From Thermodesulfovibrio sp. 3462-1 (GTDB taxonomy: Bacteria > Nitrospirota > Thermodesulfovibrionia > Thermodesulfovibrionales > Thermodesulfovibrionaceae), in assembly GCF_040451425.1 (NCBI RefSeq), contig NZ_CP144374.1, forward strand, positions 620,001 to 684,000: 64,000 bases of DNA. Direction: 5' to 3'. A program made the position numbers and the translations under genes. Below, piece by piece: positions 1 through 14,004 of this stretch; the first letter of the stretch is position 1, and each line of letters starts with the position of its first letter. Under the pieces are notes generated by a model. That model worked only from the letters and a program-made list of their open reading frames with translations, was not told the origin of the DNA and did no database searches.

Positions 1-96
1 AATATCCAAGTCATCAACTGCTTTTTCTACCGCAATTTTTAGGTTTTGGATTGCTTTTTCAAAATCAAAAAATGTTCTTTTAACCCTTTCTCTCAT
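1..96 (-). CDS. HEPN-domain (HepT-like) protein, N-terminal 32 codons only
   Basis: The reading frame starts at an ATG at 96 and runs out of the window, so only the first 32 residues are seen (MRERVKRTFFDFEKAIQN and on). A short basic start followed by a DFEKAIxNL helix is typical of the first helix of HEPN proteins that partner small MNT nucleotidyltransferases. The start overlaps the end of the upstream gene by 17 bp, and that gene ends in an MNT domain, which is the usual MntA/HepT layout. The catalytic RX4-6H motif would lie outside the window, so RNase toxicity cannot be judged. The call rests mostly on context. Confidence 0.6.
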   Translation of the reverse strand, partial: MRERVKRTFFDFEKAIQNLKIAVEKAVDDLDI

Positions 97-1399
97 AAAT
101 TATTATTCCTTCTCTTTCTATCTTTTCTTTAAGTTCTTTATTTGCTTTTTTTAAATCAACTATATCTATTGGAGCAATGATATCTATTCCACCTATGAAT
201 TTTCCGCTCTCAACTGCAATATCAATATCTGCGTTTCTATGAGCATCTCCTCTTGCCCTTGAACCGAAAAGAATTATCTTTTTAGGTAAAATTTGGTTTT
301 CTATCTTATGAATAATATTATTTAAAATTTTTGGCTGTGATAAAATATATTCCTTACCTTTATTTTTTAATTCATTCCAGAATTCATCAATGAGTTTATA
401 ATCTGGTTTTTGAATCCTACTACCAGCTTTTATAATTGTTCCTTCTTCTAAGAACTCACTTGATAAGCGTATAACAAGCCAAGCAAAACCATTTATTGTT
501 TTAATTAATTTAAAAATTAATGGAGATGACCGACGATTTATTTTTATGTTCCCTTTTTCAGCAATGGCATGTTTTCTTGGTAATCCAAAGACTGCTGTAT
601 CTAAAACATTAGATTTATGTTCTTTCCTAAAATCTAAATAAATCTTGCCTATATTATTTAAAGCATCTTTCCAGTTAGGAAATAGCTGGTTGGAGATAAT
701 TATTCTTGAAAAAGATAGATTTGAATATTCTGAAACAAAATTTGAAGGAAGGCCTCCTCTTACGATTTCAAAACATTTATGAAGATTTCCCTTTAACCAA
801 TTGAAAATTTCATCTGAACTGCTTCCTTTGGGGATAAAATTAATTCCATATGTCTCACCTTCTATCTTTTTTACAATAATATTTCCTCCACCTCTTCTTG
901 CCCTTGTTCCAAAACCACCAAGATAAATTGATGCCCAGAGAGAGGCAATAGCATTTTTGAAAGATTTTTCATCAAAGGAGGATAGCTCTATATTAAATTC
1001 AAATCCATCTTTTATAAATTTTCTTTCCTGTCTTGGCAAAACCGTTGAATAAAGTAAATATCCTATTCCAGCATCCTTCCCTGCCAATGATTGAGTATCT
1101 TTATCAAAGTGCCAATCTAAACCATAGTCATTTTTTAAATTCCATCCAATGAACTGATGGGCTCGCTGAGGAATCACTTTTATCCTTACCTTGCTTTTTC
1201 CTTCCTTCTCTCCTGTCCCACCGAAAATCTCTGCCTCTTCTTTTTTCAATTTATCAATATCACTTTCAGCCCTTATTGCCCTCCACCAAAACCTCATCAT
1301 ACCTTTAAATTCAGATGGTCTTAACTCAGGAGTTCTACTATCCGCTCCTGCTATAAACATTGGCGTTATGACTTGGCATAAAAGACTACATCTGTTCAT
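80..1399 (-). CDS. Cmr1-type RAMP protein fused to a C-terminal MNT nucleotidyltransferase
   Basis: Residues 1 to about 355 match Cmr1 (Cas7-like RAMP of type III-B CRISPR complexes): VITPMFIAGAD and ELRPSEFKGMMRFWWRA near the start, FGGTGEKEGKSKVRI near 60-75 and LGGFGTRARRGGG in the middle. Cmr1 normally binds the 3' end of the crRNA and target in the Cmr effector. Residues 359-439 are a complete minimal nucleotidyltransferase with GSX10DXD (G379, S380, D391, D393), a later VDL-type strand and an IEREGIIIYER ending, as in MntA antitoxins. No stop or frameshift separates the two parts. A GGAGGTGAG ribosome site precedes the ATG, and cas3'' ends 4 bp upstream. Fusion of these two families is unusual; it could be functional or a deletion scar in a decaying locus. 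Confidence 0.85.
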   Translation of the reverse strand: MNRCSLLCQVITPMFIAGADSRTPELRPSEFKGMMRFWWRAIRAESDIDKLKKEEAEIFGGTGEKEGKSKVRIKVIPQRAHQFIGWNLKNDYGLDWHFDKDTQSLAGKDAGIGYLLYSTVLPRQERKFIKDGFEFNIELSSFDEKSFKNAIASLWASIYLGGFGTRARRGGGNIIVKKIEGETYGINFIPKGSSSDEIFNWLKGNLHKCFEIVRGGLPSNFVSEYSNLSFSRIIISNQLFPNWKDALNNIGKIYLDFRKEHKSNVLDTAVFGLPRKHAIAEKGNIKINRRSSPLIFKLIKTINGFAWLVIRLSSEFLEEGTIIKAGSRIQKPDYKLIDEFWNELKNKGKEYILSQPKILNNIIHKIENQILPKKIILFGSRARGDAHRNADIDIAVESGKFIGGIDIIAPIDIVDLKKANKELKEKIEREGIIIYERKG

Positions 1400-1403
1400 T
1401 TGC

Positions 1404-2144
1404 TCACCTCCTTACATTCACACTATTAACATATTTTACAATATCCTCCACCATTAACCATCCACCATAGCAATCTTTGTCATCTTCTTTCAGATATCCT
1501 TTTCTTTCCACTGCAGCAGAAATATTGCAGAGTTTTAATATGTGATGAATTAAATATGCCTGAAGCCTTCTTTGATGCTGTTCTAACAGCCTGCAACCTT
1601 TAGCCCAGACTCTTAGATCTCTTGCCATATCTTTTAAATCCGCAACTTTAAGACTTTTTGCTTCATTTGGAAAATATTTTTTATCCAATTTATCTATTTC
1701 TTTATGCCAATCTATATTTCCATCAAAGTCAGCTATTCCATCAACAATCGCTTGTACATCAGGTCTCTCGATATTATCTCCAAGAAGTCCGCTATCAGTA
1801 TGATGAATTGCTATAGCAAAAATTACTGCATTTTTTAAATTTTCATCTACATCTTCATTTGTTAATTTTTTATAAAGAAACCCTGCACCAATTGGAGCAT
1901 GAGATGGAAGCTTTTTATTTGTACGTAAATTTTCCTGCCATTTTTTTGTCAGTTTCCCAAGGTCGTGAAACAAAACTATCTGTTTTAATATATCTTTGCA
2001 GACAGATGCATCTCTTAAATTAAAAATCCTTAAAATTGTCTTTTCAAATAAAGGATAAATTACTTCGAATTTCTCTAATGCTTTTTCAATGTGATCAGTA
2101 TAGCTTTCATCTGGAGCACTTTTAAATAAAATATGATGTGTCAT
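1404..2144 (-). CDS. cas3'': CRISPR-associated HD nuclease Cas3''
   Basis: 246-residue stand-alone HD domain. The metal-binding set is visible in order: H18 (YTDHIEKA), H60-D61 (LFHDLGKLTKKWQ), H82 (SHAPIGAGF) and H114-H115 (AIAIHHTDSG). This is the order of Cas3'' proteins, which degrade single-stranded DNA together with the Cas3' helicase in type I interference. The gene overlaps the 3' end of the cas3' remnant by 23 bp and is 4 bp from cmr1, so it sits in one operon. It looks intact although its helicase partner next door is broken. Family assignment is firm; activity without a helicase is doubtful. Confidence 0.8.
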   Translation of the reverse strand: MTHHILFKSAPDESYTDHIEKALEKFEVIYPLFEKTILRIFNLRDASVCKDILKQIVLFHDLGKLTKKWQENLRTNKKLPSHAPIGAGFLYKKLTNEDVDENLKNAVIFAIAIHHTDSGLLGDNIERPDVQAIVDGIADFDGNIDWHKEIDKLDKKYFPNEAKSLKVADLKDMARDLRVWAKGCRLLEQHQRRLQAYLIHHILKLCNISAAVERKGYLKEDDKDCYGGWLMVEDIVKYVNSVNVRR

Positions 2145-2882
2145 TTTTCACTCCTATGTTTTCATCATAATCATTTTTCTCAAGAATATACTTGCTAAAT
2201 GGGGTAATTTTTCTTATCTCTTCAAAATACCATTTTTTAGAATCAATGTCATATTTAACCTTGTATTTTAAGATTTTATTTTCAAAAAGCATCCATGCTA
2301 CACCTATGTCAACATCTATTGAATTTTCTTTAAAATTAGTATTGTTAATGCTGTCTTGGATTCTATCCTTTTCTTTTACCTTCTCCAATAGAAAAGTCAA
2401 CCACAACTAAGGTTACTGGTTTGCTATTTCTTACCTGAATGTTTTCTGGTTTTCTATCAGCATATAAAACGCATTCATACAAATCAATTAAACGTATCTC
2501 TTGCCTCATAATCGCTTGCTTTATAATCAAGGGTTTCGTTGACAAAACGGCAGACCTCTAAAAAATGGCGAATTGGGATATCGCCATGCTGGACTTTAAC
2601 AGTAATGTGTGGAGAAATTTTTTCAGCATATTTTTTAATTCTCTCTGCGATACTATTTACAAGAACTCTCATCGGCAATACATAAATCATACAAGGTGCT
2701 ATTTCAAACTTATTATTGATAAATTGTGATAAAAAGGGCACTAAAACTGCTTCTGTTTTTCCAGAGCCTGCTGGAGCTTTAAACAGAATTGGAAGATTTC
2801 CTTGATATATTTCCTCCGACACTTTAATTTGAAACTCATAAGGCTTAAATCCAAAAATTTTCTGGAAAACTTCCATTCTCAA
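2122..2882 (-). pseudogene. Decayed cas3' helicase (internal deletion plus two frameshifts)
   Basis: The first ~103 codons from the ATG at 2882 read as a normal Cas3' start: Q motif region, Walker A PAGSGKTEA (38-43), motif Ia YVLPMRVLVNSIAERI and QHGDIP. The DEAH box and motifs III-VI never follow. After about position 2573 the frame enters RFVNETLDYKASDYEARD, stops, and resumes in a second frame (LYECVLYADRKPENIQVRN) and then a third (VKEKDRIQDSIN to FSKYILEKNDYDENIGV), which resembles the C-terminal accessory domain of Cas3 helicases. The gene has therefore lost the middle of the helicase and suffered at least two indels. It cannot give a working Cas3'. The reconstruction of the C-terminal frames is by eye. 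Confidence 0.75.
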
Positions 2883-2980: not shown

Positions 2981-3748
2981 TCATTCTTTATCTTTTCTTT
3001 CGCTTCTCCATACCTCTATACATCCAAAGCCAAGGGAGTTTTTTGCGCCAATGCCTGCTTCAAAAGCCATTGTAAAAAGTTCTTCTGGAAGATTGAGTTC
3101 AAATACTCCATCCCATCCCTTTATCACTGTGTTTTTGTAAATAACGATCCTCTGGTCTTTTGAGTTTACTTTGTAAGGTTTTATTGAGCCTTCCAGTATT
3201 GTGCTTCCTCGCCATGTTCTTAGCTTTCTTTGCAAATTTTTAATTAACAATTTTTCAAACTCTTTTTCAAAGGGACAGTAATAGTAGGTTTTTCTTTTTC
3301 CATTAGCGGTTTCAAGGGTGCTATAAACAGTGATAGGTGAAAGAGTTTTAACATAGATTCTGTCTTTGTAAGCAGGTGGTCCTTCTACCTGTACTGATGA
3401 TAAAATCATGTTTTCACTGCCAATTCTTAATGTGCCAGCTTTAAGCAGAGTCATTGCAAAGGATTGAATAAAATCATTAAACGGAGATGAGATAATTAGA
3501 CTTACATTGCCATACAAGTATATCTTACCTTCTTTTACATGGGCTTTTTCAGAGGGAATAAGCCTTGAAAAGGTAAAAAATTTCATCCTTCGTTGTGTCT
3601 CAGGGTCTTTAAAGCCTCTGTCATGAAGATTTTCTCCAATATGAGATTCAAGATGATGATATATAAATCCCTGAATGATTTCGTTGTAATGGCAGGGTAG
3701 GGTGATAAAGGATTTTTCAGGATGATAGAATTTAATTTTAAGTCGCAT
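2981..3748 (-). CDS. cas6: CRISPR repeat endoribonuclease Cas6
   Basis: 255 residues, the usual size of Cas6, which cuts the CRISPR precursor transcript within each repeat. The start MRLKIKFYHPEKSFITLPCHYNEIIQGFIYHHL is the first ferredoxin-like strand and helix of the family, with several histidines that could supply the general acid. The C-terminal glycine-rich RNA-binding loop GIGAKNSLGFGCIEV lies at 232-246. It is the first gene of the minus-strand cas group, with a 98-bp gap before the cas3' remnant. It is intact, so it could still serve an array elsewhere in the genome; none is in this window. Confidence 0.9.
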   Translation of the reverse strand: MRLKIKFYHPEKSFITLPCHYNEIIQGFIYHHLESHIGENLHDRGFKDPETQRRMKFFTFSRLIPSEKAHVKEGKIYLYGNVSLIISSPFNDFIQSFAMTLLKAGTLRIGSENMILSSVQVEGPPAYKDRIYVKTLSPITVYSTLETANGKRKTYYYCPFEKEFEKLLIKNLQRKLRTWRGSTILEGSIKPYKVNSKDQRIVIYKNTVIKGWDGVFELNLPEELFTMAFEAGIGAKNSLGFGCIEVWRSERKDKE

Positions 3749-13305: not shown

Positions 13306-14004
13306 ATGGATGAGAAAACCTTATCAAATTTAATAAGAGAGGCAGTAAGACAGGAAATCAATCTTTTAAAAAATGAATTAAAGGAAGAGCTTAAAAATTT
13401 TGCAACGAAGGAAGATCTGAAAGCCTTTGCAACGAAGGAAGATCTGAAAGCCTTTGCAACGAAGGAAGATCTGAAAGCCTTTGCAACGAAGGATGACCTG
13501 AAAGCCTTTGCAACGAAGGAAGATCTGAAAGCCTTTGCAACGAAGGATGACCTGAAAGCCTTTGCAACGAAGGAAGATCTGAAAGCCTTTGCAACGAAGG
13601 AGGACCTGAAAGCCTTTGCAACGAAGGAAGATCTGAAAGCCTTTGCAACGAAGGAAGATCTGAAAGCCTTTGCAACGAAGGAAGATCTGAAAGCCTTTGC
13701 AACGAAGGAGGACCTGAAAGCCTTTGCAACGAAGGATGACTTTCTTGAGTTTGAAAGGCGGTTAAGTGATGCTATTGAAAAAATAAGAGAAGGAGTAAGG
13801 CTTTATTTGTATGAATTGGAGAGACAGATTGTTGAGATAAAAAGTAAATTAAGATTCTATGACTTTGATTTTATAGCAAGACAGAATGACACGATGATAA
13901 AAATTTTAAAGGATCTTTATGAGGAAAAAACGGTCATATCAAATAAACTTAAAGAACATGAAACCAGATTAGAAGAGATTGAGGTTATGTTAAAGAGTTC
14001 TTAA
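13306..14004 (+). CDS. Helical protein with 13 tandem nine-residue repeats
   Basis: 232 residues. After a helical start, residues 32-148 are 13 tandem copies of FATKEDLKA (variants KDDLKA; the last copy degenerates to FATKDDFLE). The rest, about 150-232, is charged and helical (YLYELERQIVEIKSKL, LKEHETRLEEIEVML) and would form a coiled coil. No signal peptide or membrane segment. Similar ATKEDL repeats occur in bacterial coiled-coil proteins of unclear function. It is the first gene after a promoter and is followed 2 bp later by a P-loop protein and the heme genes; function unknown. Confidence 0.7.
   Translation: MDEKTLSNLIREAVRQEINLLKNELKEELKNFATKEDLKAFATKEDLKAFATKEDLKAFATKDDLKAFATKEDLKAFATKDDLKAFATKEDLKAFATKEDLKAFATKEDLKAFATKEDLKAFATKEDLKAFATKEDLKAFATKDDFLEFERRLSDAIEKIREGVRLYLYELERQIVEIKSKLRFYDFDFIARQNDTMIKILKDLYEEKTVISNKLKEHETRLEEIEVMLKSS
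13399..13749 (+). repeat. Tandem 27-bp repeat array inside a gene, 12 full units plus one degenerate
   Basis: Each unit starts TTTGCAACGAAGGA and ends CTGAAAGCC. Twelve units fill 13399-13722 and a thirteenth, diverged at its end, 13723-13749. Units differ only at the KED/KDD codons (GAAGAT, GATGAC or GAGGAC). This near-identity at the DNA level, including third positions, points to recent unit duplication, so copy number probably varies between strains. Confidence 0.97.

Follow-up and report, generated by a model that had tools for sequence, protein, structure and literature searches.

A Cmr1–nucleotidyltransferase fusion and an adjoining HEPN gene form a conserved module of type III-B CRISPR operons

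Results

Anatomy of the cmr1–MNT fusion gene

The window, that is, the whole stretch of DNA that was analysed, comprises 64,000 nucleotides (G000:C1:620001-684000) of the 1.82 Mb chromosome of Thermodesulfovibrio sp. 3462-1, which is assembled as one contig. At its left edge a cmr1 gene fused to a minimal nucleotidyltransferase (MNT) domain lies between the start of a HEPN gene and several cas genes, with the following features.

1-96, minus strand: first 32 codons (5′ end) of HEPN, which continues beyond the window and is complete (133 aa) at L002:14695-15096; overlaps the end of the fusion gene by 17 bp (80-96)
80-1399, minus strand: cmr1–MNT fusion gene, 439 aa, a single ORF with Pfam and NCBIfam domains; AlphaFold mean pLDDT 87.6
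80-328, minus strand: MntA-type MNT part, residues 358-439 and stop (PF18765, PF01909; NF047752)
97-116, minus strand: predicted HEPN ribosome-binding stretch (AGGA, spacing 10) inside the codons of a conserved (K/R)EG(V/I); family-wide, with E430 and G431 invariant
164-166, minus strand: D412, likely the third catalytic carboxylate; almost invariant, with N in L056 alone, a locus with a truncated HEPN
221-265, minus strand: GSX10DXD catalytic motif, residues 379-393 (G379, S380, D391, D393), invariant in 13 fusions
329-1399, minus strand: Cmr1 (RAMP) part, residues 1-357 (PF03787, TIGR01894); the model matches Cmr1 structures
1404-2144, minus strand: cas3″ HD protein, upstream neighbour (TIGR01596)
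2125-2882, minus strand: broken cas3′ helicase, a neighbour outside the module (PF00270 fragment; tblastn with the intact L048 homologue)
2981-3748, minus strand: cas6, upstream neighbour (PF01881)

The fusion gene is one unbroken ORF with its stop codon at 80-82. The Pfam RAMPs profile matched residues 8-174 (71 bits, above the cut-off), and the score against the NCBIfam Cmr1 profile TIGR01894 was 64.8 bits (cut-off 28.65), which places the N-terminal part among Cmr1 proteins. Residues 360-438 were matched by the Polbeta and NTP_transf_2 profiles (47.5 and 34.6 bits, respectively, both above the cut-off). The catalytic motif GSX10DXD reads GSRARGDAHRNADID and is followed by a third aspartate, the sequence hallmarks of an MntA nucleotidyltransferase. 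The score against the NCBIfam profile MntA_antitoxin was 45.1 bits, under the equivalog cut-off of 60; the MntA profile NF047752 hit 13 of the 13 fusion-family members. A fold search with the AlphaFold model returned the Cmr1 structures 9l7c_A, 4w8x and 4l6u. The ORF, the profile matches and the position of the motif thus bear out the sequence-only reading, which had described a Cmr1 RAMP running on into a complete MNT domain with GSX10DXD at residues 379-393.

The HEPN partner and its probable translational coupling

The HEPN ATG is located at 94-96, 17 bp inside the fusion gene (overlap 80-96), in agreement with the 17-bp overlap claimed earlier. The same 17-bp overlap between HEPN ATG and fusion stop was found in 10 of the 16 loci with a readable start, the others having overlaps of 4, about 14, 20 or 29 bp. 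A Shine-Dalgarno-like stretch lies 8-12 bases 5′ of the HEPN start and is encoded by the (K/R)EG(V/I) of the MNT tail; the toxin's ribosome-binding site would therefore be within the antitoxin coding sequence, an arrangement that fits coupled translation in which the antitoxin is made first.

The 133-aa HEPN protein matched the PF08780/HI0074 family with 98.9 bits (cut-off 31.8) and TIGR01987 with 83.9 bits (cut-off 55.8), and it reached 28.4 bits against NCBIfam HepT, under the equivalog cut-off of 60. As neither the MNT (45.1 bits) nor the HEPN (28.4 bits) reached the cut-off of 60, the pair is called MntA/HepT-like here, and its members are not termed MntA/HepT equivalogs. The catalytic motif, for which the sequence left of position 1 was inspected, is intact (RNRLVHEY, i.e. 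RX4HXY), and an RX4HXY HEPN adjoining an MNT is the arrangement of type VII toxin–antitoxin systems. The AlphaFold model of the HEPN from a relative, L064, had a pLDDT of 92.6; its closest fold was the Legionella HEPN toxin, including the AMPylated form 8xdj_B (TM 0.92/0.90, 28% identity), followed by Thermus and Haemophilus HI0074-type proteins and Shewanella HepT. By sequence and predicted fold, the HEPN is thus assigned to the HI0074/PF08780 branch, nearest to the Legionella HEPN–MNT pair, and is not a strict HepT equivalog. The MntA/HepT interpretation proposed earlier holds in part: the fusion does have a HepT-like partner with intact motifs on both sides, but the HEPN is of another branch and the scores stay below the equivalog cut-offs.

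The operon around the fusion

The region past the window edge (L002, G000:C1:605001-624000) showed that the HEPN gene overlaps cmr2 by 17 bp and is followed by cmr2, cmr3, a CARF-RelE protein gene, cmr4, cmr5, cmr6 and a CARF protein gene. All of cmr2-6, whose absence would have pointed to a deletion, are present and intact by their profile matches, so that the fused Cmr1 sits in an operon with cmr2-6. The cmr2 product is a Cas10 with GGDD and an HDPxxK motif, and cmr4 keeps its catalytic Asp. A CRISPR array of 116 repeats is located about 27 kb from the fusion (G000:C1:585002-592722; L160:2-7722). The Cmr system of the window thus looks, from its genes, complete and supplied with crRNA.

Upstream of the fusion, cas3″ and cas6 look intact. 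In cas3′, residues ~128-397 of 550 are gone and the remainder lies in several frames (tblastn with the L048 homologue), implying an internal deletion with frame breaks, as the earlier remark on a broken cas3′ had it. Locus L048 from Thermodesulfobacterium has the same gene order as the window and a cas3′ of 550 aa.

Past cmr6 (L002:1435-6236, equal to G000:C1:606435-611236), cas8a-like pieces in two ORFs, cas8b and a gene for a CARF-PD-(D/E)XK nuclease were observed; the III-B cassette therefore sits between the cas3/cas6 and the cas8-type genes of a type I system. In two genomes of the same genus (G007 and G011; loci L004 and L005), Cmr1 is short (295 and 291 aa), with the first ~75 aa about 75% identical to those of the window's protein and a remainder that does not align, which suggests recombination within cmr1.

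Spread and conservation of the module

When 296 genomes of the window's phylum were searched with the fusion as the single query sequence, four further fusions aligned over the full length (46-50% identity, from query residues 4-8 to 438-439). In addition, 84,980 species genomes were scanned with the Cmr1 part alone, which avoids a bias toward MNT, and 80 loci were obtained. ORF profile scans of these loci showed an MNT tail with an adjacent HEPN in Thermodesulfobacterium, Caldimicrobium, Caldicoprobacter, Caldanaerobacter, Calditrichota, Aminicenantes, an archaeal Methanophagales MAG, a Thermotoga MAG, Brocadia and several Nitrospirota. Altogether, intact MNT/HEPN pairs were found in 15 loci, the window included, from eight phyla, with one archaeal MAG among the carriers; in this count the Cmr1 part of L077 is itself frame-split, and some carriers are MAG contigs, for which the phylum is that of the bin. 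L057 from Thermoanaerobacter thermocopriae was set aside, as its cmr1, HEPN, cmr4 and cas10 are all frame-split, probably by sequencing errors. The search proposed in the sequence-only reading for other proteins with a Cmr1 N-terminus and an MNT C-terminus has thus yielded 14 further genomes. Cultured carriers are Thermodesulfobacterium thermophilum, Caldanaerobacter subterraneus and Caldicoprobacter oshimai.

The gene order cmr1–MNT, HEPN, cmr2 is common to the loci, with a second Cmr1 between HEPN and cmr2 in L055 and L077. G379, S380, R383, G384, D391 and D393 are invariant in the 13 aligned fusions, D412 nearly so, and R90, N91, L93, V94, H95 and Y97 are invariant in the 12 aligned HEPNs. 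No fusion was found in the 72,556 plasmids searched, IMG/VR gave no fusion and two short MNT-only matches, and the search of viral structures gave no significant fold match; carriage by mobile elements or viruses was ruled out on these results.

Three observations concern additional genes at these loci. A second, ordinary Cmr1-like RAMP was seen beside a long Cmr1 at L055:4681-5670, L077:11752-12618, L066:3553-4551 and L059:17074-18219, the long Cmr1 being fused or MNT-less depending on the locus; where it is fused, it may be an extra subunit. The Methanophagales operon in L055, which already has cmr1–MNT and HEPN, carries a second, unfused MNT–HEPN pair between cmr3 and cmr4 (L055:8614-9523; HEPN family PF05168). 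In Caldicoprobacter oshimai, the fusion is immediately preceded by MNT, HEPN-fragment and MNT ORFs (L052:8800-9786).

Coupled decay of MNT and HEPN

Three loci were damaged in both halves of the module, with the Cmr1 part intact in each. In L070 (Brocadia WS118), the MNT carries S380P and D391A and the HEPN is a frame-broken remnant; in L050 (Bacillota), the MNT is frame-broken beside a HEPN remnant; and in L056 (Acidobacteria), the MNT carries D412N and the HEPN is cut off before RX4H. An intact HEPN beside a broken MNT was found in none of the loci obtained. With 15 intact, three doubly damaged and no mixed loci, the probability of chance coincidence is 1/816 if the loci are independent; the three damaged ones are from different phyla, and the MNT damage in L056 is a single substitution. 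The MNT-less relatives (L051, L059 and others) lack the HEPN as well, and in them cmr2 follows cmr1 directly. Such coupled decay is the pattern expected if the HEPN is harmful without the MNT and Cmr1 needs neither of them to function.

The Cmr1 tree (53 rows) placed the fused proteins together, but with MNT-less relatives among them, and requires at least six changes, a topology that is readable as gain or as loss of the MNT. In the HEPN tree, the 15 Cmr-linked HEPNs grouped as a single clade (100/99), apart from 26 stand-alone HI0074-type HEPNs drawn from the window's phylum. Because the HEPNs form one clade, a single gain with later losses is preferred for the Cmr1 tree as well, and the simplest reading of both trees is that the module arose once, spread widely by horizontal transfer and was lost repeatedly.

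Relation to deposited structures and known systems

A 438-aa chain deposited under the name 'Cmr1-MntA' occurs in PDB entries 9Z7Q, 9Z7V and 9Z7X. From end to end it is 100% identical to the fusion encoded in G029, a genome from the same order as that of the window, and the entries also comprise Cmr2, Cmr3, Cmr4 and Cmr6 of the same species; 9ARW, an entry for the same complex, contains Cmr2, Cmr3, Cmr4 and Cmr6 of that species without Cmr1-MntA. The G029 fusion is about 49% identical to the window protein over the whole length, including both domains and the linker. The deposited protein thus has the same family and domain order and comes from a different species, and a fusion of this family has already been recognised by others as a subunit of an assembled Cmr complex, a membership that the deposits show for this orthologue. 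No PDB chain closely resembles the partner HEPN, and the deposited Cmr1-MntA complexes contain none. A PDB fold search with the fusion (structures to 8 April 2026, a set that may predate the entry) did not have 9z7q among its matches. A literature search, in which subscription papers and bioRxiv were sparsely covered, gave no paper naming a Cmr1–MNT fusion; a survey of type III effectors has no text on Cmr1 or MNT (PMC11229360), and a survey of the HEPN superfamily does not contain 'Cmr' (PMC3710099). The HEPN partner, the spread and the coupled decay described here frame the question to be asked of the deposited complex.

Like Shewanella MntA/HepT (SO_3165/SO_3166), with its three catalytic aspartates (PMC7641770), the module pairs a GSX10DXD antitoxin with an RX4HXY HEPN; unlike there, the antitoxin is a domain of Cmr1 and the scores are below the MntA and HepT equivalog cut-offs. 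Legionella HEPN–MNT (8XDJ/8XEH) and HI0073/HI0074 share the closest solved HEPN fold and, by sequence search, the same HI0074-like branch, but these are stand-alone pairs without a CRISPR link. The Q44/E47 metal site proposed for Legionella (PMC11586414) is partly matched here, in that the alignment shows E kept and Q replaced by K. CreTA is alike in logic only, as there too a CRISPR effector keeps a toxin silent; in CreTA, Cascade represses an RNA toxin by means of an RNA guide (PMC12737573), whereas here the toxin would be a protein and the silencing probably covalent.

Discussion

The results demonstrate that the fusion with its HEPN partner is a conserved, built-in module. The view raised against it, that a deletion joined cmr1 to a downstream MNT gene, has the broken cas3′ next door in its favour; however, the cmr operon on the other side and the HEPN motif are intact, the same junction occurs in 14 further fusions (eight phyla in all), and Thermodesulfobacterium L048 has a cas3′ of intact length beside the same fusion, so that a scar is scarcely conceivable and the view was rejected. 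Assembly error was likewise discarded, as the identical junction recurs in independent genomes, including those of cultured DSM strains.

Using the motif and Asp residues that are also conserved in the fusion, MNTs of the MntA type attach AMPs to the Tyr of RX4HXY, which silences HEPN RNases (PMC7641770; PMC11586414). Given this homology and the invariance of both motif sets, the Cmr1-borne MNT very probably AMPylates this HEPN and thereby silences it. The contribution of the fusion to Cmr1 is less certain, with guarding of the complex as our first choice and release or activation by target binding as the second. As an antitoxin, the MNT domain at the Cmr1 C-terminus would move AMP from ATP onto Y97 of RX4HXY. 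This AMP would keep silent the HEPN RNase, which the following gene encodes and whose translation would be coupled to that of the fusion. With the antitoxin built into a Cmr subunit, silencing of the HEPN would last only as long as Cmr1 is produced, undamaged and able to act. Were the Cmr1-bearing complex removed, blocked or depleted by a virus or a mutation, or ATP drained, newly made HEPN would stay unmodified and cut cellular RNA, and the cell would arrest. We infer HEPN AMPylation, HEPN toxicity and release on Cmr1 loss, the CreTA-like release from the anatomy only. That a type VII-like (MntA/HepT-like) toxin–antitoxin system is in this way hard-wired into the III-B effector, with Cmr1 loss freeing the HEPN, we consider evenly poised between right and wrong. 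In its favour we count the full operon, the 14 other intact MNT/HEPN pairs, the invariant residues, the MntA chemistry described for these motifs, the HEPN fold match, the 17-bp overlap with its Shine-Dalgarno-like stretch in antitoxin codons, the coupled decay, the HEPN clade and the PDB complexes; against it count the MNT and HEPN scores below the MntA/HepT equivalog cut-offs and the Cmr loci that repeatedly lack or have lost the module. Such absence and loss imply that Cmr can function without the module, which would equally hold for an accessory effector. In addition, HEPN already AMPylated would stay silent, so that release would need new HEPN synthesis or de-AMPylation. Other outputs exist as well, the Cas10 GGDD/GGED and the Cmr4 aspartate being intact and CARF effectors being present in several loci, and the MNT/HEPN module would therefore add to the usual type III response and not replace it.

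Cmr1 is located at the crRNA 3′ end. A seed role of that end is described in PMC8376896. The MNT domain of Cmr1 might dock the HEPN on the Cmr complex, at the end where target RNA and the crRNA 3′ end come together, and target binding might alter the MNT or its access to the HEPN and in this way free the HEPN or leave it unmodified, giving an RNase arm at infection beside cyclic oligoadenylate signalling. The fusion is part of solved Cmr complexes, the HEPNs form a stable single clade, and cOA effectors coexist with the module, which makes a parallel output plausible; however, no quick removal of covalent AMP from a HEPN is known, and docking is putative, the deposited complexes having no HEPN chain. 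We regard this target-triggered release as a serious rival, though somewhat unlikely. Less likely again, and improbable overall, is the capture of an ordinary MNT–HEPN pair by the cmr operon, fused by chance at the stop codon, which would punish loss of the operon with no tie to infection. MNT–HEPN pairs are very common, unfused ones lie beside or inside cmr operons (the L052 and L055 pairs above), and the module has been lost repeatedly with Cmr1 intact, but one origin, wide transfer and a conserved junction suggest selection on the fusion itself. The pair might also be no toxin–antitoxin at all, the HEPN being a substrate-binding subunit and the MNT modifying the crRNA 3′ end, target RNA or another protein. 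HI0073/HI0074 pairs were first interpreted so (title of 1jog), and the HEPN is in that family; yet the RNase residues are typically lost where HEPNs of multidomain MNT proteins have been reduced to binding subunits (PMC3710099), whereas RX4HXY is invariant here, and the nearest solved relative, from Legionella, is an AMPylated RNase toxin. This makes a mere binding subunit very improbable.

Taking the guarding and the target-triggered readings together, we tentatively propose, with the odds slightly against us, that a Cmr subunit is the enzymatic antitoxin of a linked RNase toxin, in a module of single origin present in at least eight phyla of bacteria and archaea, through which complex integrity or target-binding state sets cell fate by AMPylation. 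If so, RNA-guided adaptive immunity would be physically joined to a toxin–antitoxin pair, in what would be a protein-based analogue of the RNA guard CreTA, and the cell could punish viruses that disable type III CRISPR. The existence of cultured carriers makes the module directly testable.

Two repeats were also observed. Within the CRISPR array L160:2-7722, a stretch of 300 bp is duplicated exactly (copies at 2410 and 3750), and a 232-aa ORF at 13306-14004 of the window contains a 27-bp tandem repeat (KAFATKEDL) and encodes a coiled-coil-like repeat protein.
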